DNA of 64,000 bases from Phycisphaeraceae bacterium (lineage in GTDB: Bacteria; Planctomycetota; Phycisphaerae; Phycisphaerales; SM1A02). Under the pieces are notes generated by a model, which did not search any database, had not been told where the DNA came from, and saw nothing but the letters and a program-made list of their open reading frames with translations. Of the stretch, positions 5,309-64,000 are shown piece by piece. The DNA lies in contig JAHBWY010000001.1 in assembly GCA_019636735.1 (NCBI GenBank), positions 62,001 through 126,000 of the forward strand. The letters run 5' to 3'. Position 1 is the first letter of the stretch. Each line of letters opens with the position of its first letter. The position numbers and the translations under genes were made by a program.

Positions 5309-5450
5309 TTGACCAATGCAGGAGAGCGATTGCTCTCCACCTTGTGCCAGCCGCGATCCGGGCCATGTCGCGGCATGTGGTTGGCTTCCGGTCCGGGAAG
5401 TGTGCAATGACTGCGGATTTAGACCGCAGTCGGGAAAGGCGGGACAATCG
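5309..5450 (+). promoter_or_regulatory. Leader A: promoter plus conserved structured 5' region of beta-helix gene A
   Basis: A possible -35 (TTGACC, 5309-5314) is followed after 16 bp by TGCTCT, then a 54-nt core (5344-5397) that matches leaders B and C at all but one base. The core can pair GCCAGC with GTTGGC and CGCGA with TCGCG. Just before the start codon GACTGCGG (5409-5416) and CCGCAGTC (5424-5431) form a perfect 8-bp hairpin. GGAGAGC-GATT-GCTCTCC (5321-5338) is a third inverted repeat overlapping the putative -10. The distance from -35 to ATG is 142 nt here and 141 nt in B and C. Promoter assignment is inferred; the conservation is seen. Confidence 0.55.
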
Positions 5451-7580
5451 ATGGAGTTTCTTGACACGCGGGAGACCGAGGTGATGATCGGTCGTCGGTC
5501 GTCGGTCGTCGGTCGTCGGTCGTCGGTCGTCGGTCGTCGGTCGTCGGTCGTCGGTCGTCGGTCGTCGGTCGTCGGTCGTCGGTCGTCGGTCGTCGGTCGT
5601 CGGTCGTCGGGTGCGGGGTGGGTCCTCGCGCTGATTGTTGCGGTGGTGTTCGCGGGGTTCGCCGAGCGTGAGGCGATGGCGCAGTGTCCACCATCAAGTG
5701 ATCCGGAAATTCGATATGTGAAGATCGGGGGTACCGGCAGCTTTGGGCTGTGCTGGGACGACGCTTACGGCACGCTTGAAGAGGCGCTGGCGGATGCCAA
5801 CAACAGTTCACTCGGAATCACAACCATCAGAGTTGCGCAGGGGACCTATCGGCCGCTCGCTCAGTCGGGGTTCGTAATCTTGGCGGCGGTCACGATCGAG
5901 GGCGGCTACCGGGGATTCACTGACAGCGAGGGCGATGCCGATGATCGGGATCTGTGTGAATTCCCAACCGTCCTTTCCGGAGACCTTCTCGGGGACGATG
6001 ATGGGACACTTGCCAACATGGTGGATAACGCGATCCATGTCCTTCGCGTGTCGTCGCTTTCCGGGGTAACTCCTGGAGTGTTAGATGGACTGCATGTCAC
6101 CGCGGGATGTGCCTTGAACGCAGAGTCAGCATCCGACCGAATCGGCGGCGGTCTTCGTCTTGACGAGACCGGCGAGGAGACGGTCGTTCGGGTGCAATCA
6201 TGCCGCTTCTACGGGAATGTTGCGAACCTGGGGGGCGCAATCGGATCCCGAATGAGGATGATTTGCCGAGATTCGCTCTTTGAGGAGAACTCAGCGCTGC
6301 CGACCACTCCGCCCAGCGGACCGGGCACGACCAACGGCGCTGGGGGTGCGATCTTCGGCACGACGACCTTCGATGTGGTTCACTGTCGGTTTGACGGTAA
6401 CGAAGCCGACGGCACTGGTGGGGCCATCGTGATTAGTCGAGGAACTGCGCTCGTTGAGGAAGGCCTCGAGGAGCCTCCACCCGCAGGGACGGAGGGGCCG
6501 GATGGGTATCCATTTTGGGTCACCAGCAGCGTCTTCGTCGGGAATCAATGCAGCTTCACAGGTCCGTGGAGGGGTGGTGCGATCGGTGTCCAATATCAGG
6601 CGATGCTGCTCGCAACCAACTGTGTATTCCAGGGCAACACGGCTCCGTATGGTGGCGCTATCGGCGTCACTTCAACACTCCCGCTCTTGGAGGCGCAGGT
6701 TGTCCTCACTAATTGCACACTCACCGGAAACTTCGGTGGATCCTCAAACGGAGGTGTTGACTCGCCGACCGCTCAGATTGCGAACTCGATCCTCTTCGGG
6801 AATGGAACTCTGGGCGACCCGGAATGCGGGAGCTGGGAGACTGACGAGGGAATTGAGGTCTTCGATCCTGACCTCTGCGCGCAGATCGGCGGTGTGGACC
6901 CGGTGAACTTCCACATCAGCCACTCCTGCGTCGCTGGGATCAGTTGGGCGGCATCGTTCTGGACCACATCGTTCGGCCCCGGCAACATCGATCTCGACCC
7001 ACAGTTCGTCGATCCGGCATCGGGTGACTTGAGATTGGCACCAGGCTCCGCTGCAATCGAGGCAGGCGACAATCTCGACATCCCGGCCGATGTGACCGAT
7101 GTCAATGACAACGCAGACATGGCGGAGCAGTTGCCGTGGGACATCAGGCGGTTCGTGCGAGTCTTTGGCTGCGACCAGGTCGTTGACATGGGGGCTTACG
7201 AGTGGGGTGGATGCACGGGGGATGCGACAGGAGACGGATCCGTCGATGGTGCCGACATTGCGTTGCTGCTGGGGAACTGGGGATCATGCCAAAGCGCCCC
7301 GTGCGCAGGTGATTTGGACTGCGATGGGGAGGTCGCGGGTTCGGACATGGCGCTGGTGCTTGGCAACTGGGGGCCGTGCCCCCCGCTGCCATCGGCGCCG
7401 TGTTTCTGGCCATTGTCTGCACAATCCGAGGCGATGTCGCTGAAAGTAGGGGCGGGAGCGACCCCGGCGTCACTGATGGAACTGCTTGGCATGTCAGGAG
7501 TCGAGCAGCTTGTCGGGTGGCTGTCATCGCTCGAAAGTTCGACGATGAAGGTGATTCTTGAGGCCTGGTTCGGACTCTAA
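5451..7580 (+). CDS. Secreted beta-helix (Pmp-like, choice-of-anchor Q) protein A with dockerin-like motifs
   Basis: The 709-residue product starts MEFLDTRETEVMI, runs through five GRRSSVV heptapeptides plus GRRSS (about 14-53), then a hydrophobic signal core (WVLALIVAVVFAGFA) with cleavage near AMA-QCP. Residues about 80-560 contain repeated GGAI and FxGN motifs like chlamydial Pmp and parallel beta-helix proteins, ending in the choice-of-anchor Q sequence DPQFVDPASGDLRLAPGSAAI. Two EF-hand/dockerin-like motifs follow at about 588-642, then a 55-residue tail ending SLESSTMKVILEAWFGL. It is paralogous to the gene at 41900. The HAF gene downstream was originally 53 nt away and is now separated by an IS inserted at the stop codon. 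It is probably surface-attached or secreted; the ligand is unknown. Confidence 0.85.
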   Translation: MEFLDTRETEVMIGRRSSVVGRRSSVVGRRSSVVGRRSSVVGRRSSVVGRRSSGAGWVLALIVAVVFAGFAEREAMAQCPPSSDPEIRYVKIGGTGSFGLCWDDAYGTLEEALADANNSSLGITTIRVAQGTYRPLAQSGFVILAAVTIEGGYRGFTDSEGDADDRDLCEFPTVLSGDLLGDDDGTLANMVDNAIHVLRVSSLSGVTPGVLDGLHVTAGCALNAESASDRIGGGLRLDETGEETVVRVQSCRFYGNVANLGGAIGSRMRMICRDSLFEENSALPTTPPSGPGTTNGAGGAIFGTTTFDVVHCRFDGNEADGTGGAIVISRGTALVEEGLEEPPPAGTEGPDGYPFWVTSSVFVGNQCSFTGPWRGGAIGVQYQAMLLATNCVFQGNTAPYGGAIGVTSTLPLLEAQVVLTNCTLTGNFGGSSNGGVDSPTAQIANSILFGNGTLGDPECGSWETDEGIEVFDPDLCAQIGGVDPVNFHISHSCVAGISWAASFWTTSFGPGNIDLDPQFVDPASGDLRLAPGSAAIEAGDNLDIPADVTDVNDNADMAEQLPWDIRRFVRVFGCDQVVDMGAYEWGGCTGDATGDGSVDGADIALLLGNWGSCQSAPCAGDLDCDGEVAGSDMALVLGNWGPCPPLPSAPCFWPLSAQSEAMSLKVGAGATPASLMELLGMSGVEQLVGWLSSLESSTMKVILEAWFGL
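5488..5610 (+). repeat. Heptanucleotide tandem repeat (GGTCGTC)n, 17 units, inside gene A
   Basis: The tract is an uninterrupted 123-nt run of the 7-bp unit, read in frame as GRRSSVV every 21 nt. Neither alternative frame has a stop inside the tract, but both stop soon after it, at the TGA in gcgctgattg and the TGA in gagcgtgagg. A change of one or two units would therefore truncate the protein before its signal peptide; a change of three keeps it in frame. Confidence 0.95.
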
Positions 7581-7589
7581 GAGACTGTT

Positions 7590-8105
7590 TCAGAACCGGA
7601 CTGCATGCGATTTGAGGCGAGCATGAACAAGCAGTGCGGCGGCCAGCTCGTGGAATGCCTGGAAGTGCTGCGCCCAGCGCTCATAGGAGTGCCTGATGCG
7701 TCGGAAGTGCCCGACGCAGGCCAGCGATTGCTCCACGACATAACGGAGTACGCCAAGCCTGCTGCCGTGGATCTTGCTCAGGCGAGCGGCGAGCAGATCG
7801 CCAATCCCCTTGCGCTTCAGCATCGTCTTGACGGCGCGCGTCCCGTAGGCGCGATCACCCAGGAGCGACTCGGGCTTGCATCGCGGGCGTCCCCGACGAC
7901 CGGCGACTGCGGGATACGACTCAAGAAGCGGGGCCACCTGCCGCTGATCCTGAACATTCGCCGGAGTGGTCTGGATGGTCAGGACGACACCGGAGCCATC
8001 GGTCGGGATATGGCGTTTGCAGCCGCGTTTTGCACGGTCCGTCGGGTTCGGGCCCGTGCGCGATCCTCCCTGAGCGCGCGCACGGACTGCGAGTCCACAA
8101 CCGCC
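7590..8105 (-). CDS. IS427-like transposase, second frame (orfB), lacking its own start
   Basis: From about 8057 downwards this frame reads TGPNPTDRAKRGCKRH, then LLGDRAYGTRAV with the second catalytic aspartate, and YVVEQSLACVGHFRRIRHSYERW with the DDE glutamate. It terminates with a TGA at 7590-7592, inside the terminal inverted repeat. It is in the -1 frame relative to orfA; the switch must occur between about 8058 and 8095. Many IS427 elements use programmed frameshifting, but no clear A-rich slippery site is seen, so the copy may be inactive. The upper boundary given is approximate. Confidence 0.7.
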   Translation of the reverse strand, partial: GGCGLAVRARAQGGSRTGPNPTDRAKRGCKRHIPTDGSGVVLTIQTTPANVQDQRQVAPLLESYPAVAGRRGRPRCKPESLLGDRAYGTRAVKTMLKRKGIGDLLAARLSKIHGSRLGVLRYVVEQSLACVGHFRRIRHSYERWAQHFQAFHELAAALLVHARLKSHAVRF

Positions 8106-8404
8106 CGATGGTCGATGCCCACCGCAAACTTGAAGACTCTGAGCAGCTCTTGGTGGAGCCGAGTCCAGACGCCAGACTTCCACCACTCCTTGAACCGCCG
8201 CCAGCACGAAGAGCCGCTGACTCCGAACGCCTCCCGCGGCAACGCCTGCCAGGGAATGCCTGTCCGCAGTACGAAGATGATGCCTCGAAGCGCCGCACGA
8301 GAGTCGACTGGTGGCCGCCCACCCGCCGATGTACGGGGCCTCGGTCTTGGCAGAAGCGGCTCCGCCGCCCGCCAGAGATCCTCTGAAACGAGTTCCTTCG
8401 CCAT
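7979..8404 (-). CDS. IS427-like transposase, first reading frame (orfA)
   Basis: The 141-residue frame starts MAKELVSEDLWRAAEPLLP and contains GGRPPVDSRAALRGIIFVLRTG and SSCWRRFKEWW, the usual N-terminal region of IS5-group transposases, then reaches VVDSQSVRA with the first catalytic aspartate. After that it leaves the family frame (REDRARARTRR instead of a GPNPTDRGKRG-type sequence) and ends early. The rest of the enzyme continues in the -1 frame, so this is orfA of a two-frame element or a copy damaged by a single-base change. Confidence 0.8.
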   Translation of the reverse strand: MAKELVSEDLWRAAEPLLPRPRPRTSAGGRPPVDSRAALRGIIFVLRTGIPWQALPREAFGVSGSSCWRRFKEWWKSGVWTRLHQELLRVFKFAVGIDHRAVVDSQSVRALREDRARARTRRTVQNAAANAISRPMAPVSS

Positions 8405-8530
8405 GATTGCGCCTCCATGCGCTGTTGAAGAACTCTCCCTTCATCGGTCGATCAATGCCCTCTGAAACAGTCTCTAAAGCGAAGGGTCCAAGGGCCACCA
8501 TGTTCCCTATTACCATTGGAGGTTTCTGAA

Positions 8531-9742
8531 ATGAAGCGTGCCCCTCAACTCGCGGTGATGTCGATTCTGGCACTGAGCGCGTTGCCTGTAGCCCAAGGGC
8601 AGTGCCAGTACACCGTGAAGAGCTGGGCTCCATGGCCGTGCTCGGGTGGTCTGCCCATGTACTCTGTTATTACAGGGTTGAACAACCTTGAGGCGTGGTG
8701 TGGCTACAGGCCGAAGTGCCATGGGGCCACCGGGGACATTCCCGTGTATTGCCCTCCGGGTGGCTCACCGCAGGAGCTTCCCCTGCCGCCCGGGGCTGGC
8801 CCGAAGGGCGCGCAGGCGGTCGCTGTCAATGACTTCGGTGTCGTCGTCGGGTTCTCATTCCAGGGGACGAGTGGGACCGTCAAGATCGGCTGCATCTGGA
8901 AGCCCGACGGAACTGTCACGACCATTGCCCCCTTTCCGGATGGTGTCATCAGCCCGCCCTACGCGGTGAACAAGCAAGGCACCGTTGTAGGCACTTCGGC
9001 GGGTAAGCCCTATGTCTGGTCAAACGGGGAGATGACTCTGATTCCAACACCTGTCGAGTTTCCGGGCGGTTACGCCACGGACATCAGCGACAGCGGCTTT
9101 GTGGTGGGCGAGTATGGTCATCACTCCAACGGTTCATTGCGTGGCTTCCGCTGGCGGGATGGAGAGTTCGAGGTGCTTGAGCCGGCGGAGTCGTACACGG
9201 TGTGTCGTGCCCGCGGCGTGAATGATGCGGGCGTGGCGGTGGGATCATCGAACGCGTATGTGATTGGCGTATGGGTTGGGTCGGTCGCGACAGTCTGGAC
9301 GAAGGACGAGGTGATCGCCCTGCCGTCGCTGCCGGGGCACCCGTTCAGTTACGCCATGAGCATCAACTCGAGTGGTGTCATCATTGGCGCCGCTTCGCTG
9401 ACCGGATATGTGGACACTCAAGTTGCCGTGGTGTGGATCAATGGGGAGCCGCACAAGCTCACTGATCTCATGGCCCCTGGGACGCCGTCGATCGGAAACG
9501 CGCCCCATAGGATCAACGAGGTGGGTGAGATTCTCCCGTACGGATCGAACCGTATCTTGACCCCGCTGTCCCCCCTGGCCGCCGACATCACCGGCGATTG
9601 CGCTGTCGATGGCAAGGACATCGCGAAGGTGCTTGCTGACTGGGGCGTGACGCCATGGTCCGCCGCGGATTTGGACAACGATGGTGTCGTCGGCGGGCGT
9701 GACCTGGCGCTCATTCTCGGTGAGTGGACGGGGTCGCGGTGA
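8531..9742 (+). CDS. Secreted HAF-repeat protein A with dockerin-like motifs
   Basis: The 403-residue protein has a signal peptide (MKRAPQLAVMSILALSALPVAQG-Q), then repeated HAF-type units with the core I/V-N-x-x-G-x-V-V-G: AVNDFGVVVG, AVNKQGTVVG, DISDSGFVVG, GVNDAGVAVG, SINSSGVIIG. It ends with two dockerin-like motifs (DITGDCAVDGKDIAKVLADWG and DLDNDGVVGGRDLALILGEW). HAF proteins are predicted extracellular beta-propeller-like proteins of unknown function. GGAGG at 8518-8522, 8 nt before the ATG, fixes the start. The beta-helix gene upstream is its ancestral operon partner; the IS now lies between them and may cut off or alter transcription. Confidence 0.85.
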   Translation: MKRAPQLAVMSILALSALPVAQGQCQYTVKSWAPWPCSGGLPMYSVITGLNNLEAWCGYRPKCHGATGDIPVYCPPGGSPQELPLPPGAGPKGAQAVAVNDFGVVVGFSFQGTSGTVKIGCIWKPDGTVTTIAPFPDGVISPPYAVNKQGTVVGTSAGKPYVWSNGEMTLIPTPVEFPGGYATDISDSGFVVGEYGHHSNGSLRGFRWRDGEFEVLEPAESYTVCRARGVNDAGVAVGSSNAYVIGVWVGSVATVWTKDEVIALPSLPGHPFSYAMSINSSGVIIGAASLTGYVDTQVAVVWINGEPHKLTDLMAPGTPSIGNAPHRINEVGEILPYGSNRILTPLSPLAADITGDCAVDGKDIAKVLADWGVTPWSAADLDNDGVVGGRDLALILGEWTGSR

Positions 9743-41758: not shown

Positions 41759-41899
41759 TTGACCGACGCAGGTGCGCGGGTACGCTCCGAAGCGTGCCAG
41801 CCGCGATCCGGGCCATGTCGCGGCAAGTGGTTGGCTTCCGGTCCGGGCAGAGTGCATCGACTGCGGCATGAGGCCTCGGTCGGGAAAGGCAGGATTTCG
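41759..41899 (+). promoter_or_regulatory. Leader B: promoter plus conserved structured 5' region of beta-helix gene B
   Basis: TTGACC (41759-41764), 16 bp, TACGCT (41781-41786), then the 54-nt core at 41794-41847, identical to leader C and one base different from leader A. GGTACGC and GCGTGCC can pair around the putative -10. GACTGCGGC and GCCTCGGTC near 41858-41877 can form a hairpin with one mismatch, at the position where leader A has a perfect one. AGGCAGGA 5-12 nt before the ATG may serve as the ribosome site. Confidence 0.6.
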
Positions 41900-43987
41900 A
41901 TGAAGTGTCTTGACACGCGGGAGACCGAGGCGATGTCGGTCGTCGGTCGTCGGTCGTCGGTCGTCGGTCGTCGGTCGTCGGTCGTCGGTCGTCGGTCGTC
42001 GGTCGTCGGTCGTCGGTCGTCGGTCGTCGGGTGCGGTGCGGGGCGGATTCTCGCGCTGATCGTCGCGGTGGTGCTGGTGCAGTTCATTGGCAAGCCGTCG
42101 CAAGCGCAATGCGAGAGTGAGGCGATTCGGTTTGTGAGAGCTGGCGCCAGCGGAGCCTCTGGTCAGTGCTGGGACGACGCCTACGGCACGCTTGAGCAGG
42201 CCTTGGCGGATGTCAACAATCAACAGCTCAGCGTCACCACCATCAGGATCGCGCAGGGGACCTACAGGCCGTTGTCGCAGTCGGGGTTTGTGATCTCCAT
42301 GCCGGTCACCATCGAGGGCGGCTACCGCGGATTCACCGACAGCGAAGGCAACGCCGATGATCGGGATCTGTGTGAGTATCCCACCGTCCTTACCGGAGAC
42401 CTCCTCGATGATGACGACGGGACAATTGGGTCGATGGCGGACAACGCAGTCCATGTCATTCGAGTGTCGTCGCTGGTAGGAGGAACCACTGGAGTGCTGG
42501 ATGGGCTGATCATGACCGCCGGCTGCGCGTTGAACGCGGAACTGATGCCCGACAGATTCGGAGGGGGCCTTCGCCTCGACGAGACCGGCGAGGGTGCTGA
42601 GATTCTGGTGCAATCATGCCGCTTCTACGGGAACACCGCGACGACGGGGGGCGCAATCGGAGCACGGATGCGGTTGGTCTGCCGAGATTCGCTGTTCGAG
42701 GGAAATGCCGCCCGAGCGAGCGTTGCGCCAGGCGGCCTGGGATTGACCAACGGCAATGGAGGAGCGATCGTTGCCACAACGGCATTTGAGGTGGTCCACT
42801 GCCGGTTCGAAGGCAACGAGTCGGAGGGTAGTGGAGGCGCCATCGTCATCGCGCGGGGGACTGCCCTTGTCGAGGAGAGTCTCGAGGAGCCTTCCGAGGG
42901 CGGGCCGGAAGGGTATCCATTCTGGGTGACCAGCAGTGTCTTCCTCGGTAATCACTGCAGCTTCACGGGGCCGTGGCGGGGCGGTGCCATTGGCATCGGG
43001 GAACAGGCGATGCTGATCGCGACCAACTGTGTGTTTCAGGGGAACACGGCGCCGTTTGGAGGTGCCGTCGGCGTCGACTCGGAGTTCTTCCTTCTGGACG
43101 CGCAGGTTCTTCTGACGAACTGCACGCTCACCGGGAACCTGGGTGGATCGATGAGCGGAGGTGTTGATTCGCCGACCGCAGTGATTGCGAACTCAATCCT
43201 GTTCGGGAACGGAACGCTCGGCAGCGCGGACTGCGGAAGCTGGGAGACAGAAGATGGAATTGAAGTGTTCGATCCCGATCTCTGTGCCCAGATTGGCGGT
43301 GTGGATCCAGTCAACTTCCGCATCAGTCACTCTTGCGTCGCTGGAATCAGTTGGGCGGCGCCATTCTGGACCACAACCTTCGGCCCCGGCAACCTCGATC
43401 TCGATCCACAGTTCGTCGATTCAGGCGTGGGCAACTTGAGCGTCGCACCGAGTTCGCCTGCGGTCGACAGTGGAACGAACTCGGCCATCCCAGCCGATGT
43501 GACTGATGTCAATGACAACTCAGACAAGGCCGAGGATCTGCCTTGGGACTTCAGGCGGTTTGTCCGCGTCTTCGGCTGCGATCAGGTCATCGACATGGGT
43601 GCCTACGAATGGGGCGGGTGTCCTGGTGATGCGACAGGCGACGGATCTGTCGACGGCGCTGACCTCGCCTTGCTTCTGGGCAATTGGGGGCCGTGCTCGG
43701 GCTCACCGTGCGTGGGGGACTTGAACTGTGACGGGGAGGTCGCGGGATCGGACATGGCACTGGTCCTCGGCAACTGGGGGCCGTGCCCGCCTCTGCCCTC
43801 GTCGCCATGTTTCTGGCCAGCACCCGCATCATCTGAGGCGATGTCGCTGCGAGTCGGAGGAGGAGCGAGCCCGGTACTCCTGATGGATCTGCTTGGCATG
43901 TCCGATGTCGAGGAGCTGACCGATTGGCTCTCATCACTTGAATTCGCAACGATGAAGTCGATTCTCGAAGCGTGGTTCGGGCTCTGA
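41900..43987 (+). CDS. Secreted beta-helix (Pmp-like, choice-of-anchor Q) protein B with dockerin-like motifs
   Basis: The 695-residue product parallels protein A: MKCLDTRETEAM, then SVV and four GRRSSVV repeats, a hydrophobic signal core (RILALIVAVVLVQFIG), GGAI/FxGN beta-helix repeats, the choice-of-anchor Q segment DPQFVDSGVGNLSVAPSSPAV, two dockerin-like motifs and the conserved tail MDLLGMSDVEELTDWLSSLE. Its heptanucleotide tract is 28 nt shorter than in A. A one-base difference before and a five-base difference after the tract restore the frame. The HAF gene B begins 53 nt after the stop. Function is probably extracellular; the ligand is unknown. Confidence 0.85.
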   Translation: MKCLDTRETEAMSVVGRRSSVVGRRSSVVGRRSSVVGRRSSVVGCGAGRILALIVAVVLVQFIGKPSQAQCESEAIRFVRAGASGASGQCWDDAYGTLEQALADVNNQQLSVTTIRIAQGTYRPLSQSGFVISMPVTIEGGYRGFTDSEGNADDRDLCEYPTVLTGDLLDDDDGTIGSMADNAVHVIRVSSLVGGTTGVLDGLIMTAGCALNAELMPDRFGGGLRLDETGEGAEILVQSCRFYGNTATTGGAIGARMRLVCRDSLFEGNAARASVAPGGLGLTNGNGGAIVATTAFEVVHCRFEGNESEGSGGAIVIARGTALVEESLEEPSEGGPEGYPFWVTSSVFLGNHCSFTGPWRGGAIGIGEQAMLIATNCVFQGNTAPFGGAVGVDSEFFLLDAQVLLTNCTLTGNLGGSMSGGVDSPTAVIANSILFGNGTLGSADCGSWETEDGIEVFDPDLCAQIGGVDPVNFRISHSCVAGISWAAPFWTTTFGPGNLDLDPQFVDSGVGNLSVAPSSPAVDSGTNSAIPADVTDVNDNSDKAEDLPWDFRRFVRVFGCDQVIDMGAYEWGGCPGDATGDGSVDGADLALLLGNWGPCSGSPCVGDLNCDGEVAGSDMALVLGNWGPCPPLPSSPCFWPAPASSEAMSLRVGGGASPVLLMDLLGMSDVEELTDWLSSLEFATMKSILEAWFGL
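41936..42030 (+). repeat. Heptanucleotide tandem repeat (GGTCGTC)n, about 13 units, inside gene B
   Basis: The 95-nt tract is an uninterrupted run of the same 7-bp unit as at 5488-5610, in the same place relative to the start codon and signal peptide. The two tracts differ by exactly four units (28 nt). Confidence 0.95.
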
Positions 43988-44040
43988 ATGTCAAGGGCCA
44001 CGAGACAACGCGTGCCTCTTGGCCCATGGAGGACTTCGAA

Positions 44041-45255
44041 ATGAAGCATGTCGCTCGACTCGTGTTGATGTCCACTTTGGCACTGACCATGTCGCCCGTT
44101 GCTCGCGGGCAGTGCTCCTACACCGTGAAGACATGGGCTCCGATGCCGTGCTCTATGGGACTAGACAAGTACTACGGCGGAACCGGCTTGAACAGCATTG
44201 GGGCTTGGTGTGGATACAGAGGCAAGTGCCACGGTGTCACCGGGGAGGTGCCCGTGTATTGCCCGCCCGGCGGTTCACCGCAGGATCTTCCTTTGCCGCC
44301 CGGTGCTGGTCCGAAGGGAGCAAACACGGTGGCGGTGAACGACTCCGGCGTGGTGGTGGGTTTCTCGTACCAGGGGACGAGCGGGAGCCAGTTGGTCGGC
44401 TGCGTGTGGATGCCGGATGGAACCGTCACAACGATTTCTCCGGCTCCCGGCGGCACCAGCAGCAAGACGAACGCGGTGAACAATCAAGGCGCCGTTGTCG
44501 GCTCGTCCGCAGGCAAGCCGTATGTCTGGTTGAACGGAGAGATGACTCTTCTTCCCATTCCTGCTGGGGTATTGACCGGCGGCTACGCCACGGACATCAG
44601 CGACAGCGGCTTTGTGGTGGGCGAGTTCGGTCATCACTCCAATGGCACCCTTCGCGGCTTCCGCTGGCGTGACGGTGAGTTCGAGGTGCTCGAGCCGGCG
44701 GAGTCCTACACGGTGTCCCGGGCCCGCGGCGTGAATGATGCGGGCGTGGCGGTGGGAGCATCGAACGCGTATGAGAACGGGGTGTATGTCGGCTCGGTCG
44801 CGACGGTCTGGACGAAGGAGAGCATCATCGCGCTGCCGTCCTTGCCTGGGCATCCGTACAGCTACGCGATGAGCATCAACTCAAGTGGCGTCATCGTGGG
44901 CGGAGCCTCGCTGAACGGCTACGCCGACACCAATGTCGCCGTGGTGTGGGTGAATGGAGAGGTCTACAAACTGGCAGAGCTCATGGTTCAGGGCACTCCA
45001 ACGATCGGGACACTGCCCAAGGCGATCAACGCCGCGGGTGAGATCCTCATCTTGGGAGCAATCAAGATCGTGACGCCGATCTCCTCGGTCTCGGCCGACC
45101 TCACGGGCGATTGCGCCGTGGATGGCAAGGACATCGCGAAGGTGCTCGCCGAGTGGGGCGTGACCCCGTGGACGGTGGCCGATGTGGACCAGGACGGAGT
45201 GGTGGGCGGACGCGACTTGGCGCTGGTCCTGGGTGAGTGGACAGGGCCGAAGTGA
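44041..45255 (+). CDS. Secreted HAF-repeat protein B with dockerin-like motifs
   Basis: The 404-residue protein has a signal peptide (MKHVARLVLMSTLALTMSPVARG-QC), HAF units such as AVNDSGVVVG, AVNNQGAVVG, DISDSGFVVG, GVNDAGVAVG and SINSSGVIVG, and two C-terminal dockerin-like motifs (DGKDIAKVLAEWG, DGVVGGRDLALVLGEW). GGAGG at 44028-44032 lies 8 nt before the ATG, as in cassette A. Two blocks (44564-44763 and 44776-44961) are identical to HAF protein C, separated by a 12-nt block that differs completely. Confidence 0.85.
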   Translation: MKHVARLVLMSTLALTMSPVARGQCSYTVKTWAPMPCSMGLDKYYGGTGLNSIGAWCGYRGKCHGVTGEVPVYCPPGGSPQDLPLPPGAGPKGANTVAVNDSGVVVGFSYQGTSGSQLVGCVWMPDGTVTTISPAPGGTSSKTNAVNNQGAVVGSSAGKPYVWLNGEMTLLPIPAGVLTGGYATDISDSGFVVGEFGHHSNGTLRGFRWRDGEFEVLEPAESYTVSRARGVNDAGVAVGASNAYENGVYVGSVATVWTKESIIALPSLPGHPYSYAMSINSSGVIVGGASLNGYADTNVAVVWVNGEVYKLAELMVQGTPTIGTLPKAINAAGEILILGAIKIVTPISSVSADLTGDCAVDGKDIAKVLAEWGVTPWTVADVDQDGVVGGRDLALVLGEWTGPK

Positions 45256-45275: not shown

Positions 45276-45390
45276 GCCGTAGCATCCGCCCTTGAGCGCC
45301 GCACGCGAGGTCGCCGAGCGAGGGTGATGCTGGCATGGATCGCGGCGCGCATGGCGTTGCGCCCTTCATGGGAGTGTCAGGGTTTTCATC

Positions 45391-45531
45391 TTGACCGACG
45401 CAGGTGCGCGGATAGGCTCCGAGGCGTGCCAGCCGCGATCCGGGCCATGTCGCGGCAAGTGGTTGGCTTCCGGTCCGGGCAGAGTGCATCGACTGCGGCA
45501 TGAGGCCTCGGTCGGGAAAGGCAGGATTTCG
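45391..45531 (+). promoter_or_regulatory. Leader C: promoter plus conserved structured 5' region
   Basis: TTGACC (45391-45396), 16 bp, TAGGCT (45413-45418), then the 54-nt core at 45426-45479, identical to leader B. The whole 141-nt leader differs from B at only a few positions around the -10. It is still followed by the MKCLDTRET start, although the beta-helix gene behind it is truncated, so it may now only serve the HAF gene C. Confidence 0.55.
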
Positions 45532-46118
45532 ATGAAGTGTCTTGACACGCGGGAGACCCAGCGCTGATCCCCGCGGATGTGACCGATGTAGATGAGAACA
45601 GCAACACGACCGAGGACCTTCCTTGGGATCTGGTTCGTGAGGATCGGGTCCGCGGTTGTGGGCCAGATGTCGGTGCGTTCGAGAGCCGCCCCTGCCCGGC
45701 CGATCTGAGTGGCAACGGTGTGGTCGATGGCGGTGATATCACCGTGGTGCTTGGTGCCTGGGGCGCCTGCGTCAGGTGCCCGGAGGACCTCAACGGGGAT
45801 GGTTGGGTCAGTGGTGCAGATCTTTCAATTCTTCTTGGTCAGTGGGGAGGTGTCGCAGATGCAGATCTGGACTGTGATGGCGTCGTGGGCGGTGCGGACC
45901 TCGCCATCATGCTCGGTCAGTGGGGAGAGTGTCCATCGGGGTCATCTTTCAAGTTCCTCAGCGACGCCGACGACATTGGACTGACCTCGAGCGGCGTATC
46001 TCCGGAGCTGCTCGCACTTGCACTGGGGTTTGAGAGCCTTGAGGACCTGTCTGTCTGGCTTTCGGGCCTTGAGTTTGAAATGATGGTCTCCGTCCTGCTG
46101 CTTCTGGGTTCCGAGTGA
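45532..46118 (+). pseudogene. Truncated beta-helix gene C: start and dockerin/tail kept, repeat tract and beta-helix deleted
   Basis: The ATG at 45532 encodes MKCLDTRETQR and then a TGA at 45565. Immediately after, in another frame, the sequence matches the end of proteins A and B: PADVTDVDENSNTTEDLPWD, then GCGPDVGAFE. The region encoding the heptad repeats, signal peptide and beta-helix (roughly 540 codons) is missing. What remains encodes three dockerin-like motifs (DLSGNGVVDGGDITVVLGAW, DLNGDGWVSGADLSILLGQW, DLDCDGVVGGADLAIMLGQW) and the tail LGFESLEDLSVWLSGLEFE. A GTG at 45579 could start a 179-residue protein without a signal peptide. The tail is well diverged from B, so this is not a simple recent deletion of B. 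Confidence 0.7.
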
Positions 46119-46192
46119 GAGGACACTGGGACGAGCCCGGAGCCAGCATCGTTCCAGAAACTGGATGGTGTCTTGAACTACGGTGCACTCCA

Positions 46193-47437
46193 ATGCCACA
46201 TCGGCAGACTGACCAACCCGTGCTGAGAGGACCACTCCTTGCCCTGATCGGTGTGTGTGCGCCGATGTCCTTCGCCGCTCCGGCGATGGCTCAGTGTCAG
46301 TACACAGTGACCGAGTGGGCCCCGTTCATGTGCGGCGGGTGGATTCCATACTCATACGTTGCAAGTCGCATGAACAGTGTTGGCGGGTGGTGCGGGTATC
46401 GATACGCGTGCTTCCCGTCCGAGGCCCAGCTTCCCGTGTATTGCCCGCCCGGCGGACCCCCGCAGGTGCTCCCGATGCCGCCCGGTGCTGGTCCGAAGGG
46501 AGCACAGGCGGTGGCGGTGAACGACTCCGGCGTGGTGGTGGGCTTCTCGTACCAGGGGACGAGCGGGAGCCTCAAGATCGGCTGCATCTGGATGCCCGAT
46601 GGTTCGATCGAGGTGATCCCGCCCGCTCCGGGAGCCTTGGCGAGTCAGCCCTTCGCAATGAACAACGCGGGTGCTGTCGTCGGCATCTCTTACAGTCAAC
46701 CATATGTCTGGGCCAATGGAGTGCACACGGTCATCCCCATTCCTCCTGGGGTATTGACCGGCGGCTACGCCACGGACATCAGCGACAGCGGCTTTGTGGT
46801 GGGCGAGTTCGGTCATCACTCCAATGGCACCCTTCGCGGCTTCCGCTGGCGTGACGGTGAGTTCGAGGTGCTCGAGCCGGCGGAGTCCTACACGGTGTCC
46901 CGGGCCCGCGGCGTGAATGATGCGGGCGTGGCGGTGGGAGCATCGCGCAAGTACAGCAACGGGGTGTATGTCGGCTCGGTCGCGACGGTCTGGACGAAGG
47001 AGAGCATCATCGCGCTGCCGTCCTTGCCTGGGCATCCGTACAGCTACGCGATGAGCATCAACTCAAGTGGCGTCATCGTGGGCGGAGCCTCGCTGAACGG
47101 CTACGCCGACACCAATGTCGCCGTGGTGTGGGTGAATGGAGAGCCGCACAGATTGAGCGATCTACTTGTTGCAGGCTCCCCATTCATCTCCAACCATGTC
47201 CTGCACCTCAATGATGCCGGCCAGATTGTCATGGCGTACATCGCGCAGATCGTGACGCCGATCTCCGCGGTCTCGGCCGATCTCACGGGCGATTGCGCCG
47301 TGGATGGCAATGACATCGCGAAGGTGCTCGCCGAGTGGGGCGTGACCCCGTGGACGGTGGCCGATGTGGACAAGGACGGAGTGGTGGGCGGACGCGACTT
47401 GGCGCTGGTCCTGGGTGAGTGGACAGGGCCGAAGTGA
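46193..47437 (+). CDS. Secreted HAF-repeat protein C with dockerin-like motifs
   Basis: The 414-residue protein has a longer N-terminus and signal peptide (PLLALIGVCAPMSFAAPAMA-QC), HAF units like those of protein B, and two dockerin-like motifs at the C-terminus. Its middle is identical to B over 200 and 186 nt (46746-46945, 46958-47143), while the first third and the segment after 47143 differ clearly. Unlike A and B it has no GGAGG before the ATG; TACGGT lies 8 nt upstream instead. It follows the truncated beta-helix gene by 74 nt. Confidence 0.85.
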   Translation: MPHRQTDQPVLRGPLLALIGVCAPMSFAAPAMAQCQYTVTEWAPFMCGGWIPYSYVASRMNSVGGWCGYRYACFPSEAQLPVYCPPGGPPQVLPMPPGAGPKGAQAVAVNDSGVVVGFSYQGTSGSLKIGCIWMPDGSIEVIPPAPGALASQPFAMNNAGAVVGISYSQPYVWANGVHTVIPIPPGVLTGGYATDISDSGFVVGEFGHHSNGTLRGFRWRDGEFEVLEPAESYTVSRARGVNDAGVAVGASRKYSNGVYVGSVATVWTKESIIALPSLPGHPYSYAMSINSSGVIVGGASLNGYADTNVAVVWVNGEPHRLSDLLVAGSPFISNHVLHLNDAGQIVMAYIAQIVTPISAVSADLTGDCAVDGNDIAKVLAEWGVTPWTVADVDKDGVVGGRDLALVLGEWTGPK

Positions 47438-47547: not shown

Positions 47548-49941
47548 CTATCCCCAGTTCGCAAGCAGCATGGCCAGATCGGCTCCGTCAATCACATCAT
47601 CGCCATTGAGATCTGCCGGACATCCGACACAGAGCCCCCACTGACCAAGCAGCATCGCGAGGTCCGCGCCATCGACCGTGCCGTCGCAGTTCAGGTCTGC
47701 AAGCGTGCATGGCGGCGGACCGAAGTCGACGCATCCCCACTTCGCGATGACGCTATCTCCGGACGGTGATGTGGTGAAGTCCCCACCTGCGTACAGGGCG
47801 GGGCCGCTGCCATCGTCGAAAGTCGTCAGGGCATGGACCGTGCTGTTCATGCCCGTCCCGAGAGGCGACCACACCGACCCGTTCCATCTGGCGATGCTGT
47901 TCGCACTCAGACCGCCTGCGGTGGCGAAATCCCCGCCTGCGTACAGGGCGGGGCCGCTGCCGTCGTCGAAGGCTGCCAAGACCGAGACAGGGCCGCTCAT
48001 GCCTGTCCCGAGGGGCGACCAGGCCGACCCGTTCCATTTGGCGATTCGGTTCACCACGACGCCACCAGCGATCGTGAATTGTCCGCCTGCGTAGAGGGCG
48101 GGACCACTTCCGTCGTCGAAAGTCGCCAGGGCAAAGACCCCGCTGCTCATCCCCGTTCCCAAGGGCGACCACGCCGATCCGTTCCATCTGGCGATGCTGT
48201 TCGCAGTGGCGCCACCGGCGGTCGTGAAGACACCTCCTGCGTAGAGAGCGAGCCCGTTGCCGTCGTCGAAGGTCGTCAAGGTACGAACCGTGTTGTTCAT
48301 CCCCGTTCCGACCGCCATCCAAGCCGATCCGTTCCATCTGGCGATGCTGCTCGCACTCACACCGCCTGCGGTGTTGAATAGCCCGCCTGCGTAGAGGGCG
48401 GGGCCGCTGCCGTCGTCGAAAGTCGTCAGGGCAGTGACCCCGCCGTTGAGTCCCGTCCCGAGTGGCATCCACGCAGATCCGTTCCACCTGGCGATGCGAC
48501 TCGCGGCCACACCGCCCGCCGATGTGAAGTACCCGCCCGCGTAGAGAGCCGGTCCGCTGCCATCGTCGAAGGTCGTCAGGGCAGTGACCCCGCCGTTGAG
48601 TCCGGTCCCGAGTGGTATCCACGCGGATCCGTTCCACTTGGCGATGCGATTCGCACTCACACCGCCCGCCGATGTGAAGTACCCGCCTGCGTAGAGAGCT
48701 GCACCGCTGCCGTCGTCGAAGGTTGTCAGGGCAAGGACCGTGTGGTCCACCCCAGTCGCGAGCGGCGACCACGCGGACCCATTCCACTTGGCGATCCGGT
48801 TCACCGTCACGCCGCCCGCGGTCCCGAAACCCCCACCTGCGTAGAGGGCGTTTCCGCTACCGTCGTCGAAGGTCGTCAGGGCACGAACCGTGAAGTTCAT
48901 CCCCGTCCCAAGAGGCGACCACACGGATCCGTTCCACCTGGCGATCCGGTTCACCGTCACGCCGCCTGCGGTCCCAAAGCTCCCGCCTGCGTAGAGGGCG
49001 GGGCCGCTGCCATCGTCGAATGTCGTCAGGGCATTGACCACGCCACCCACTCCTGTTCCGAGGGGCGACCATGCTGATCCGTTCCACCGGGCGATTCGGC
49101 TCGCAGCCACGCCGCCTGCAGTGGTGAACTCCCCGCCTGCGTACAGAGCCGGGCCGCTGCCATCGTCGAATGTCGTCAGGGCATGAACCACGCCATTCAC
49201 CCCCGTCCCGAGGGGCGACCACCCGGATCCGTTCCACTTGGCGATTCGGTTCACCGGCACGCCACCAGCGATCGTGAAATGTCCGGCTGCGTAGAGAGCG
49301 GGGCCGCTTCCGTCGTCGAAGCTCGCAAGCGCAATGACCGGGTCGTTCACCGCCGTCCCAAGGGGCGTCCACTCCGACCCGTTCCACTTGGCGATGCGAT
49401 TCGCACTCACTCCGCCTGTCGATGTGAACCAGCCTCCAGCGTAGAGAGCCGGGCCGCTGCCGTCGTCAAAGGTCGCCAGGGCATGGACCTGATTGTTGAC
49501 TCCTGGCATTCCACCGAATGTCGGAATCCACGCGAGTTCGCTGCACGCCTGCGCCCCATCGCTCGCGGCCAGGGTGATGACCACACCGCCGCTGCTCCCA
49601 CCGGTCGATCGGACTCTGCTGTGGCCCACATGGTTGACTCCGTGCACGGTCGCAACCGCACCGATGCTCAGGAGGGCCGAACCGGCATCGGTCTCGAGCG
49701 GGAGTCGGAACGAACCGTCCGATCGGCTCACCGCCGTGCCGCCGACAGCCGAGACGATCACCGCATCCTTCGCGGGCGTGCCATCGGAGAAGAGGACCAC
49801 TCCGTCGATCATGGTCGTCGCGGCCACGCCAGGATGGGCTGCATTGGCGATGCCGTTCAACGAGCAGGCCACCACAAGAGCGGCCATCAGGCGGATACCG
49901 ATCGCCGACCCGTGCACGAGGCGTTGCATGATTCGTCGCAT
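47548..49941 (-). CDS. Secreted protein with twelve 50-residue repeats and dockerin-like motifs
   Basis: The 797-residue product has a signal peptide (MRRIMQRLVHGSAIGIRLMAALVVACSLNGIANA), a CarboxypepD_reg-like domain (IDGVVLFSDGTPAKDAVIVS), a linker, then 11 full and one partial repeat of 50 residues with the core FDDGSGPALYAGG-x-F-x-x-AGG and RIAKWNGS-x-W. The regular Trp/Gly/Tyr spacing suggests beta-propeller blades. The C-terminus has two dockerin-like motifs (DLNCDGTVDGADLAMLLGQW, DLNGDDVIDGADLAMLLANW). AAGGAGAG lies 7-14 nt before the ATG. It is convergent with HAF gene C. Confidence 0.8.
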   Translation of the reverse strand: MRRIMQRLVHGSAIGIRLMAALVVACSLNGIANAAHPGVAATTMIDGVVLFSDGTPAKDAVIVSAVGGTAVSRSDGSFRLPLETDAGSALLSIGAVATVHGVNHVGHSRVRSTGGSSGGVVITLAASDGAQACSELAWIPTFGGMPGVNNQVHALATFDDGSGPALYAGGWFTSTGGVSANRIAKWNGSEWTPLGTAVNDPVIALASFDDGSGPALYAAGHFTIAGGVPVNRIAKWNGSGWSPLGTGVNGVVHALTTFDDGSGPALYAGGEFTTAGGVAASRIARWNGSAWSPLGTGVGGVVNALTTFDDGSGPALYAGGSFGTAGGVTVNRIARWNGSVWSPLGTGMNFTVRALTTFDDGSGNALYAGGGFGTAGGVTVNRIAKWNGSAWSPLATGVDHTVLALTTFDDGSGAALYAGGYFTSAGGVSANRIAKWNGSAWIPLGTGLNGGVTALTTFDDGSGPALYAGGYFTSAGGVAASRIARWNGSAWMPLGTGLNGGVTALTTFDDGSGPALYAGGLFNTAGGVSASSIARWNGSAWMAVGTGMNNTVRTLTTFDDGNGLALYAGGVFTTAGGATANSIARWNGSAWSPLGTGMSSGVFALATFDDGSGPALYAGGQFTIAGGVVVNRIAKWNGSAWSPLGTGMSGPVSVLAAFDDGSGPALYAGGDFATAGGLSANSIARWNGSVWSPLGTGMNSTVHALTTFDDGSGPALYAGGDFTTSPSGDSVIAKWGCVDFGPPPCTLADLNCDGTVDGADLAMLLGQWGLCVGCPADLNGDDVIDGADLAMLLANWG
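47780..49480 (-). repeat. 150-bp tandem repeats encoding 50-residue units
   Basis: Eleven complete 150-bp units and part of a twelfth lie in the gene at 47548. Conserved nucleotide blocks recur in every unit, for example those encoding FDDGSGPALY and WNGSAW. The units are similar but not identical, with unit-specific changes concentrated around the residues after AGG and before PLGTG. Boundaries are approximate. Confidence 0.85.
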
Positions 49942-50250
49942 GGAGCTCTCCTTCCGGATTGCCGCCCCAGTCTCAGCGATTGACGATCGACCGATGCGCA
50001 CCGACGCGCACCGAGCCGAGTCTCACGAACACAGGTCACAATCCGGAAACTTGATGGACAAACACGGAAGCGCCGAGAACACTTGAACCGACTGGCTGCT
50101 CTCAGCAGGACCAAGCCTACGGCCAGACCATTGCGTGCACAACAGCAGAGTCGTGAATTGGCGGGCTCGGCGACCCCCGGGGCTGCCCCGCGGGCGCTCG
50201 GAACCACCACCGATCAGGGGGTCAGTGACCCGCGACCCCTCCGCAACGCC
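49942..50250. other. 309-nt region between two minus-strand genes, no gene seen
   Basis: It contains the upstream region of the repeat protein (ribosome site at 49948-49955) and, near the TolC gene end, two inverted repeats: GGGTCA-C-TGACCC-type at about 50219-50232 and the hairpin at 50233-50272. CCGGATTG at 49954 and CAATCCGG at 50039 form a widely spaced inverted pair. No tRNA, ncRNA or ORF could be supported. Confidence 0.45.
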
Positions 50251-53476: not shown

Positions 53477-53553
53477 CTCGCGGTGCACGGAGCGGCCGGC
53501 GCGCTGGCGATCGACCTGCACCTGTGCCGGCGCCGTCATCGCGCATGAACCCA

Positions 53554-53735
53554 CGAACCGTCGGACCTGAACCCGGCGCGTCGACTCTGCGAACCATCGG
53601 ACCAGAACCCGGCGCGTCGACCCTGCGAACCATCGGACCTGAACCCGGCGCGTCGACCCCGCGAACCGTCGGACCTGAACCCGGCGCGTCGACCCCGCGA
53701 ACCATCGGACCTGAACCTGTGGCGCGTCGACCCCG
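53554..53735. repeat. 36-bp tandem repeat, five units
   Basis: Four 36-bp units (53554-53589, 53590-53625, 53626-53661, 53662-53697) and a fifth with a 2-nt insertion start CGAACC(G/A)TCGGACC and differ at only a few positions. They end 18 bp before the deaminase ATG. The array is open in several frames (12-residue unit GPEPGASTPRTI) but lacks a ribosome site or a plausible protein, so I treat it as non-coding. Confidence 0.88.
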
Positions 53736-53752
53736 CACGCTACGCTTCGAGC

Positions 53753-63424: not shown

Positions 63425-64000
63425 ATGCGTCATCCGAAGCGAACATCGACCGCGACGAGGGCTCGAACGAGCACCGTCGCGGTCGCTGCATTGTCAATCG
63501 TCACGGCGCTGGCATTGGACAGTTCGGCCCTCGCGCAGCGGGGGGGCGGCGGGCAGGGGGCACCCCCCGGGCCCGGGGCTCCGTCGGCGCCAGGCGGAGG
63601 CGGTGGTGGCCGACCGATGATGCCCGGCGGAGGTGGTGCGCCAAGAGCCGCGCCGCCTGCGCCGAGTGCACCTTCGGCTCCGCGATCGGCGCCCGCACCG
63701 GCACCGTCAGCGCCTCGCGCCGCGCCGCCTGCGCCGAGTGCGCCTTCGGCTCCACGATCAGCGCCCGCGCCGTCAGCGCCTCGCGCCGCGCCGCCTGCGC
63801 CGAGCGCGCCTTCGGCTCCGCGATCGGCGCCCGCACCCACGGCACCGCGGACAGCCCCTCCTTCACCGGGTTCTCCTTCCGCTCCGCGTTCAGCGCCGGC
63901 ACCGTCAGCGCCTCGCGCCGCGCCGCCTGCGCCGAGCGCGCCTTCGGCTCCGCGATCGGCGCCCGCACCCACGGCACCGCGGACAGCCCCTCCTTCACCG
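63425..64000 (+). CDS. Secreted Pro/Ala-rich repeat protein, 3' part beyond the window
   Basis: The first 192 codons are visible and stay open to base 64000. Residues 1-38 are a signal peptide with a basic n-region (MRHPKRTSTATRARTS) and cleavage near ALA-QR. A Gly-rich segment leads into repeated SAPRAAPPAPSAPSAPRS and APAP sequence, extended in the later units by TAPRTAPPSPGSP. GAGGAGG lies 8 nt before the ATG. The sequence suggests an extended cell-wall or surface linker. The remainder, possibly a functional domain, is off the edge. Confidence 0.75.
   Translation, partial: MRHPKRTSTATRARTSTVAVAALSIVTALALDSSALAQRGGGGQGAPPGPGAPSAPGGGGGGRPMMPGGGGAPRAAPPAPSAPSAPRSAPAPAPSAPRAAPPAPSAPSAPRSAPAPSAPRAAPPAPSAPSAPRSAPAPTAPRTAPPSPGSPSAPRSAPAPSAPRAAPPAPSAPSAPRSAPAPTAPRTAPPSP
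63653..64000 (+). repeat. Pro/Ala-encoding repeats including a 132-bp direct repeat
   Basis: Shorter units occur from 63653. The block from about 63773 to 63868 recurs without difference from about 63905 to 64000, a period of 132 bp (44 residues). The array continues off the window edge. Confidence 0.8.

Follow-up and report, generated by a model that had tools for sequence, protein, structure and literature searches.

The window analysed here, a stretch of 64,000 nucleotides from the genome of a Phycisphaeraceae bacterium, carries three copies of a module in which a beta-helix gene is paired with a HAF-repeat/DUF3466 gene (Table 1). The module also occurs in a sister genome (MAG VGXK01, Phycisphaerae bacterium), which shares a genus with the source genome. 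In the first module, the beta-helix gene, designated gene A, is split from its HAF partner by an IS5-like element, the ORF of which overlaps the beginning of the partner's ORF as listed. The third module retains a leader 98% identical to that of gene B, together with the first nine codons.

The protein encoded by gene A matches the Chlam_PMP family above its cut-off (PF02415, 32.6 bits; cut-off 20.6), and its score for Beta_helix (PF13229, 22.9 bits) falls just under the cut-off of 25.9. Its AlphaFold model is modest, with a mean pLDDT of 51.5 and about 75 over the strand region (residues 87-470), and its Foldseek matches are beta-helix proteins, among them Rhombotarget A. The C-terminal part has dockerin-like repeats (dockerin chains) and a helical tail, and no C-terminal autotransporter beta-barrel was found in Pfam or NCBIfam up to E 0.1. 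The product, with its beta-helix repeats and a signal peptide assigned by eye, may be exported or sit at the surface. It should be mentioned that a conserved tail of about 35 aa, LGMS.VE.L..WLSSLE..TMK.ILEAWFG, lies behind the dockerin-like repeats (window positions 7480-7580 and 43890-43987, and L232) and may be a sorting or anchoring domain that has no name yet; the unrelated C5 protein described below finishes with a tail resembling that of genes A and B.

A leader of at least 75 nt is conserved 5' of the three beta-helix copies (window positions 5344-5450, 41794-41899, and 45426-45534), where it is positioned downstream of a TTGACC promoter-like box, and the same leader stands alone 5' of a HAF-like gene on contig C5 (156769-156843, minus strand). 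In a DNA search of the genome, part of the gene A leader recurred at C1:67330, C1:103794, C1:107426, and C5:156769. A regulatory RNA within the leader was considered and rejected: it matches no Rfam family, and its predicted fold is no better than those of shuffled sequences.

Table 1. Features of the window and of the related beta-helix genes in the sister genome
Feature	Location	Strand	Remarks
Promoter-like TTGACC box and conserved leader 5' of gene A	5309-5450	+	DNA search; promoter by eye
Gene A, encoding a secreted right-handed beta-helix protein of 709 aa with dockerin-like repeats close to the C-terminus	5451-7580	+	translation, Pfam, Foldseek
Tract A, 17 full units of GGTCGTC in a perfect repeat	5488-5610	+	between start codon and signal core
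Hydrophobic signal core and AMA-QC cleavage-like site	5611-5681	+	contains both off-frame TGA stops; assigned by eye
ORF of an IS5-like transposase, separating gene A from its HAF partner	7590-8633	-	
HAF-repeat/DUF3466 secreted protein, module partner of gene A	8516-9742	+	
Gene B, paralogue of gene A, 695 aa from ATG 41900	41900-43987	+	protein 76% identical
Tract B, GGTCGTC heptamer, 13 full units, in frame	41935-42030	+	
HAF-repeat/DUF3466 partner of gene B	43972-45255	+	same pairing in sister genome
Third beta-helix copy, C-terminal remnant left	45382-46118	+	lacks the tract and almost the whole beta-helix
HAF-repeat/DUF3466 gene paired with the truncated third copy	46115-47437	+	
Octamer tract (GCGTGCAG), at least 13 units	sister contig 63		contig breaks within the tract
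(TC)12.5 tract	sister contig 7		beta-helix family member
(CT)9 tract	sister contig 168		beta-helix family member, ended by the contig end
Fourth family copy	sister contig 234		only two imperfect octamers

The heptamer tract of gene A and its reading frames

As assembled, gene A contains 17 full units of GGTCGTC (5490-5608) within a perfect, uninterrupted period-7 run of 123 nt. The units begin 39 nt past the ATG at 5451 and finish directly ahead of the hydrophobic signal core, GAGWVLALIVAVVFAGFA, which is followed by the cleavage-like site. By comparison, period-7 runs reached no more than 16 nt when the window was shuffled 20 times, and no more than 15 nt elsewhere in the window, tract B excepted. 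The tract is free of stops in all frames, since 7 and 3 are coprime and each frame therefore encodes the identical heptapeptide cycle, GRRSSVV. Loss of one unit or gain of two leads translation into the TGA at 5632-5634, with products of 58 or 65 aa, and loss of two or gain of one leads into the TGA at 5669-5671, with products of 68 or 75 aa; these stops fall 9 or 20 codons past the tract. A change of three units in either direction gives the full-length protein, seven residues longer or shorter. In all these respects, the repeat and frame analysis agrees with an earlier note on this DNA, which had described 17 units over 123 nt, lying in frame between the start codon and the signal core and free of stops in every frame, and had claimed that a change of one or two units stops translation early and that a change of three preserves the frame.

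The earlier note had also named a true start downstream of the tract as a finding that would speak against it. No in-frame ATG, GTG, or TTG was found between tract A and the hydrophobic core, and gene A starts upstream of the tract, at ATG 5451, with a further in-frame ATG at 5484 immediately before the repeat. The anatomy of the locus, the frame effects of unit changes, and the lack of an alternative start by the signal core are established. Another frame of gene A has a TTG at +10, which might make an OFF state leaky.

A slippage-promoting DNA hairpin within tract A was rejected, its folding being at best 1.8 sd better than that of shuffled sequences. In the viral contigs that were searched for strain variation, no match to the gene A start region was found. 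MutS1 is present in the source genome, so the source organism is not a MutS-deficient mutator.

Related tracts in the genome, the sister species, and the order

Tract B, in which the same heptamer recurs elsewhere in the window, was overlooked in the earlier note. Across the source genome, runs of at least three GGTCGTC units occur only at tracts A and B, and no GGTCGTC tract was found in 60 relatives and 180 other genomes of the bacterial family. Genome-wide heptamer repeat families occur in some cyanobacteria; for this heptamer such a family was ruled out by its occurrence at two places only. Tracts A and B differ in length by four units, with compensating indels in their flanks, and both genes are ON. 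It follows that, since the two copies parted, the change in unit number of the tract has not been a multiple of three.

On contig C5 of the source genome, a tandem pair of secreted-protein genes, unrelated to the beta-helix family, has a TCCGTCG-type heptamer tract between the ATG (with the ribosome site GGAGGAG) and the signal core. The copy with nine units encodes 623 aa and is ON, and that with four units encodes 73 aa and is OFF. The two are 95.9% identical across 2.66 kb, and in alignment positions 495-2329 (about 1.8 kb) the sole indel is 35 nt of the tract. Further small indels lie about 1.1 kb downstream in the four-unit copy, which may therefore be a decaying duplicate. Assignment of the C5 protein to the HAF proteins was dropped, as no family match was found.

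Members of the beta-helix family in the sister genome likewise have non-triplet repeats at their signal peptides, made of units other than GGTCGTC. The octamer tract (GCGTGCAG) was found only in the contig 63 gene among 181 genomes of the bacterial family, and CT runs of at least 15 nt occur in the whole sister genome solely in the family genes of contigs 7 and 168. These two genes have an identical ribosome site (AGGAGG), start, and tract flanks, and their tracts differ in length by 8 nt, or four dinucleotide units: the contig 7 copy is ON, with 640 aa, and the contig 168 copy is OFF, with a stop after 24 codons and a mature frame that is open as far as the contig end. Differences in unit number with an ON/OFF effect between related copies are thus established for genes of this kind other than gene A, in the C5 pair and in the contig 7/168 pair, both being near-identical copies that contrast as paralogues, not as alleles.

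Long non-triplet repeats are otherwise scarce in the DNA sampled. In 1.67 Mb of the source genome (49%), there are six of at least 25 nt, four of them at signal peptides (A, B, and the C5 pair), the others being one 11-mer and one short 8-mer without a convincing gene. In 528 kb of the sister genome, the only non-triplet repeats of more than 16 nt are the three family tracts.

Several other repeats were recorded. A perfect 11-nt repeat (TGACCTCAACC, 4.7 copies) lies at L194:6377-6428, with no ORF of at least 100 aa across it. The window itself contains about 11 tandem copies of a 150-nt unit, 77% alike, at 47774-49483 inside an ORF on the minus strand (47548-50001), five 36-nt direct repeats, 91% alike, at 53550-53736, and 66-nt repeats, about 78% alike, that run from 63647 up to the window end at 64000.

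We also surveyed 400 genomes of the order for GGAG followed at 5-35 nt by (CT)7.5, and found 33 such places in 28 genomes. An ATG at 5-8 nt behind GGAG, which is the normal ribosome-site spacing, was present in 15 of the 33 places, whereas shuffling of the spacers gave an expectation of 3.6; two of these 15 are apparently the same site on duplicate contigs. A control with CA gave about 12 GGAG places, one of which had an ATG so spaced. In three genomes of the bacterial family, the Leu-Ser core of a signal peptide is made by a CT tract, which is in frame in one case (reading from the second of two ATGs) and out of frame in two; the first codons of the remaining places suggest that these are signal peptides as well. 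The majority of CT tracts in the genomes of the bacterial family lie away from signal peptides, and long ones are also found outside genes.

Explanations for the tracts and comparison with known systems

For genes A and B, the best explanation in our view, and probably the correct one, is translational phase variation by slippage at the signal peptide. Slipped-strand mispairing alters unit numbers at replication. In the GGTCGTC tract it would add or remove 7-nt units; ribosomes initiating upstream of the tract would then make the signal peptide and the mature beta-helix (ON) or, at other unit numbers, run into a stop 9-20 codons behind the tract (OFF). In other words, export of the secreted beta-helix protein would be turned on and off in cells at random and reversibly. 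The earlier note had proposed phase variation by slippage, and the proposal is now supported by non-triplet repeats of 7, 8, and 2 nt at a homologous place in two species, by the two natural ON/OFF pairs of related copies with unequal unit numbers, by the near-absence of long non-triplet repeats from the rest of the DNA sampled, and by the order-wide excess of CT tracts right after a ribosome site and ATG. Gene A itself would presumably switch reversibly, with slippage at a switching rate in living populations and selection in favour of switching. As for the ecological benefit, our guess is the avoidance of phages or predators.

The leading alternative is that the tracts are tolerated microsatellites: nearly any low-complexity sequence of basic or hydrophobic residues is acceptable at the beginning of a signal peptide, so that slippage could expand a repeat there and loss of frame would be a cost only. 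It is true that every tract encodes, in every frame, residues compatible with a signal peptide (GRRSSVV, RAGVQACR, or LS), and the long CT tracts outside genes point in the same direction. However, many signal-peptide genes are to be expected per genome, yet the long tracts are those of one family and one tandem pair, and that one family holds three different repeat units. Moreover, non-triplet repeats in coding sequences should be purged, as triplets would give the same peptide tolerance and keep the frame. We therefore regard mere tolerance as unlikely.

The shared heptapeptide of all tract frames, and the retention of the protein after changes of three units, would also suit a length rheostat, in which three-unit steps adjust export through the in-frame length of the basic n-region and a true OFF state does not exist. 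The differences seen, however, are of four or five units, never multiples of three, and the TC/CT pair is separated by four units that change the frame, so we give this idea almost no credence. It is also very improbable that the out-of-frame copies are simply pseudogenes of duplication in which the tracts mark break sites. The later indels in the four-unit C5 copy and the third window copy, which lacks the tract and most of the gene, do look like decay, but the tract is the sole indel over about 1.8 kb between the C5 copies, the mature frame of the contig 168 copy is still open, and an intact gene in the correct frame is found in A, B, the contig 7 copy, and the nine-unit C5 copy.

Repeat-based phase variation has been studied mostly in host-adapted pathogens and commensals. 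A link between long simple repeats and host dependence is mentioned, with reference to earlier work, in a passage of PMC4060949. In the open-licence literature, we found no paper that joins phase variation and Planctomycetota, the matches to “planctomycete” looking unrelated by title or abstract, and a repeat-tract on/off switch, a kind known from host-adapted bacteria, has apparently not been described in this group. Phase variation at genes A and B may be part of something wider. With a confidence slightly short of even, we suggest that free-living planctomycetes of the order run dispersed contingency loci at signal peptides, which would diversify the cell surface at random where no host relation is known, possibly as a defence against phages or predators. 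Such loci, on the same tentative footing, would be short non-triplet repeats, often CT, inserted behind the start codons of genes for secreted or surface proteins. CT encodes Leu-Ser in every frame, and therefore a hydrophobic core is always built.

The closest anatomical parallel is with the opa genes of Neisseria, which switch by units of a CTCTT pentamer in the coding sequence of the signal peptide (PMC3960869, PMC4534519). As in opa, gene A has a perfect non-triplet tandem repeat within its 5' coding region at the signal peptide, its start lies upstream of the repeat with none usable beside the signal core, and a change of one or two units leads to early truncation, which also holds for gene B and the C5 genes; there are several paralogues per genome, and the ON or OFF state of the exported proteins, here read from the sequence, is set by the frame. 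Unlike opa, the planctomycete units are 7, 8, or 2 nt long, the product is a beta-helix or unknown secreted protein rather than an outer-membrane barrel, and switching, which is known in cells for opa, is proposed here from the sequence.

In Haemophilus influenzae, hmw1A and hmw2A carry heptamer, octamer, or nonamer repeats, depending on the strain (PMC2651432), and thus resemble the present case in that the length of the repeat unit differs by lineage within a single gene family. Those repeats, however, lie mostly in the promoter and tune transcription, whereas the planctomycete repeats lie inside the coding sequence.

Genes of the PmpG type in Chlamydia vary through poly-G tracts near the gene start (PMC6740158). 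Both groups belong to the PVC group, the gene A protein has Pmp-type GGAI/FxxN beta-helix repeats, with PF02415 above the cut-off, and in both cases the paralogues include truncated and frame-shifted copies. In contrast to PmpG, with its homopolymer, the planctomycete protein has dockerin-like repeats and no detected autotransporter barrel. If phase variation at these loci is real, a set of such loci in uncultured Phycisphaerae, with repeat units interchanged at one gene position, would extend the known range of this strategy, and would provide a link to the switching of Pmp proteins in the related Chlamydiae.
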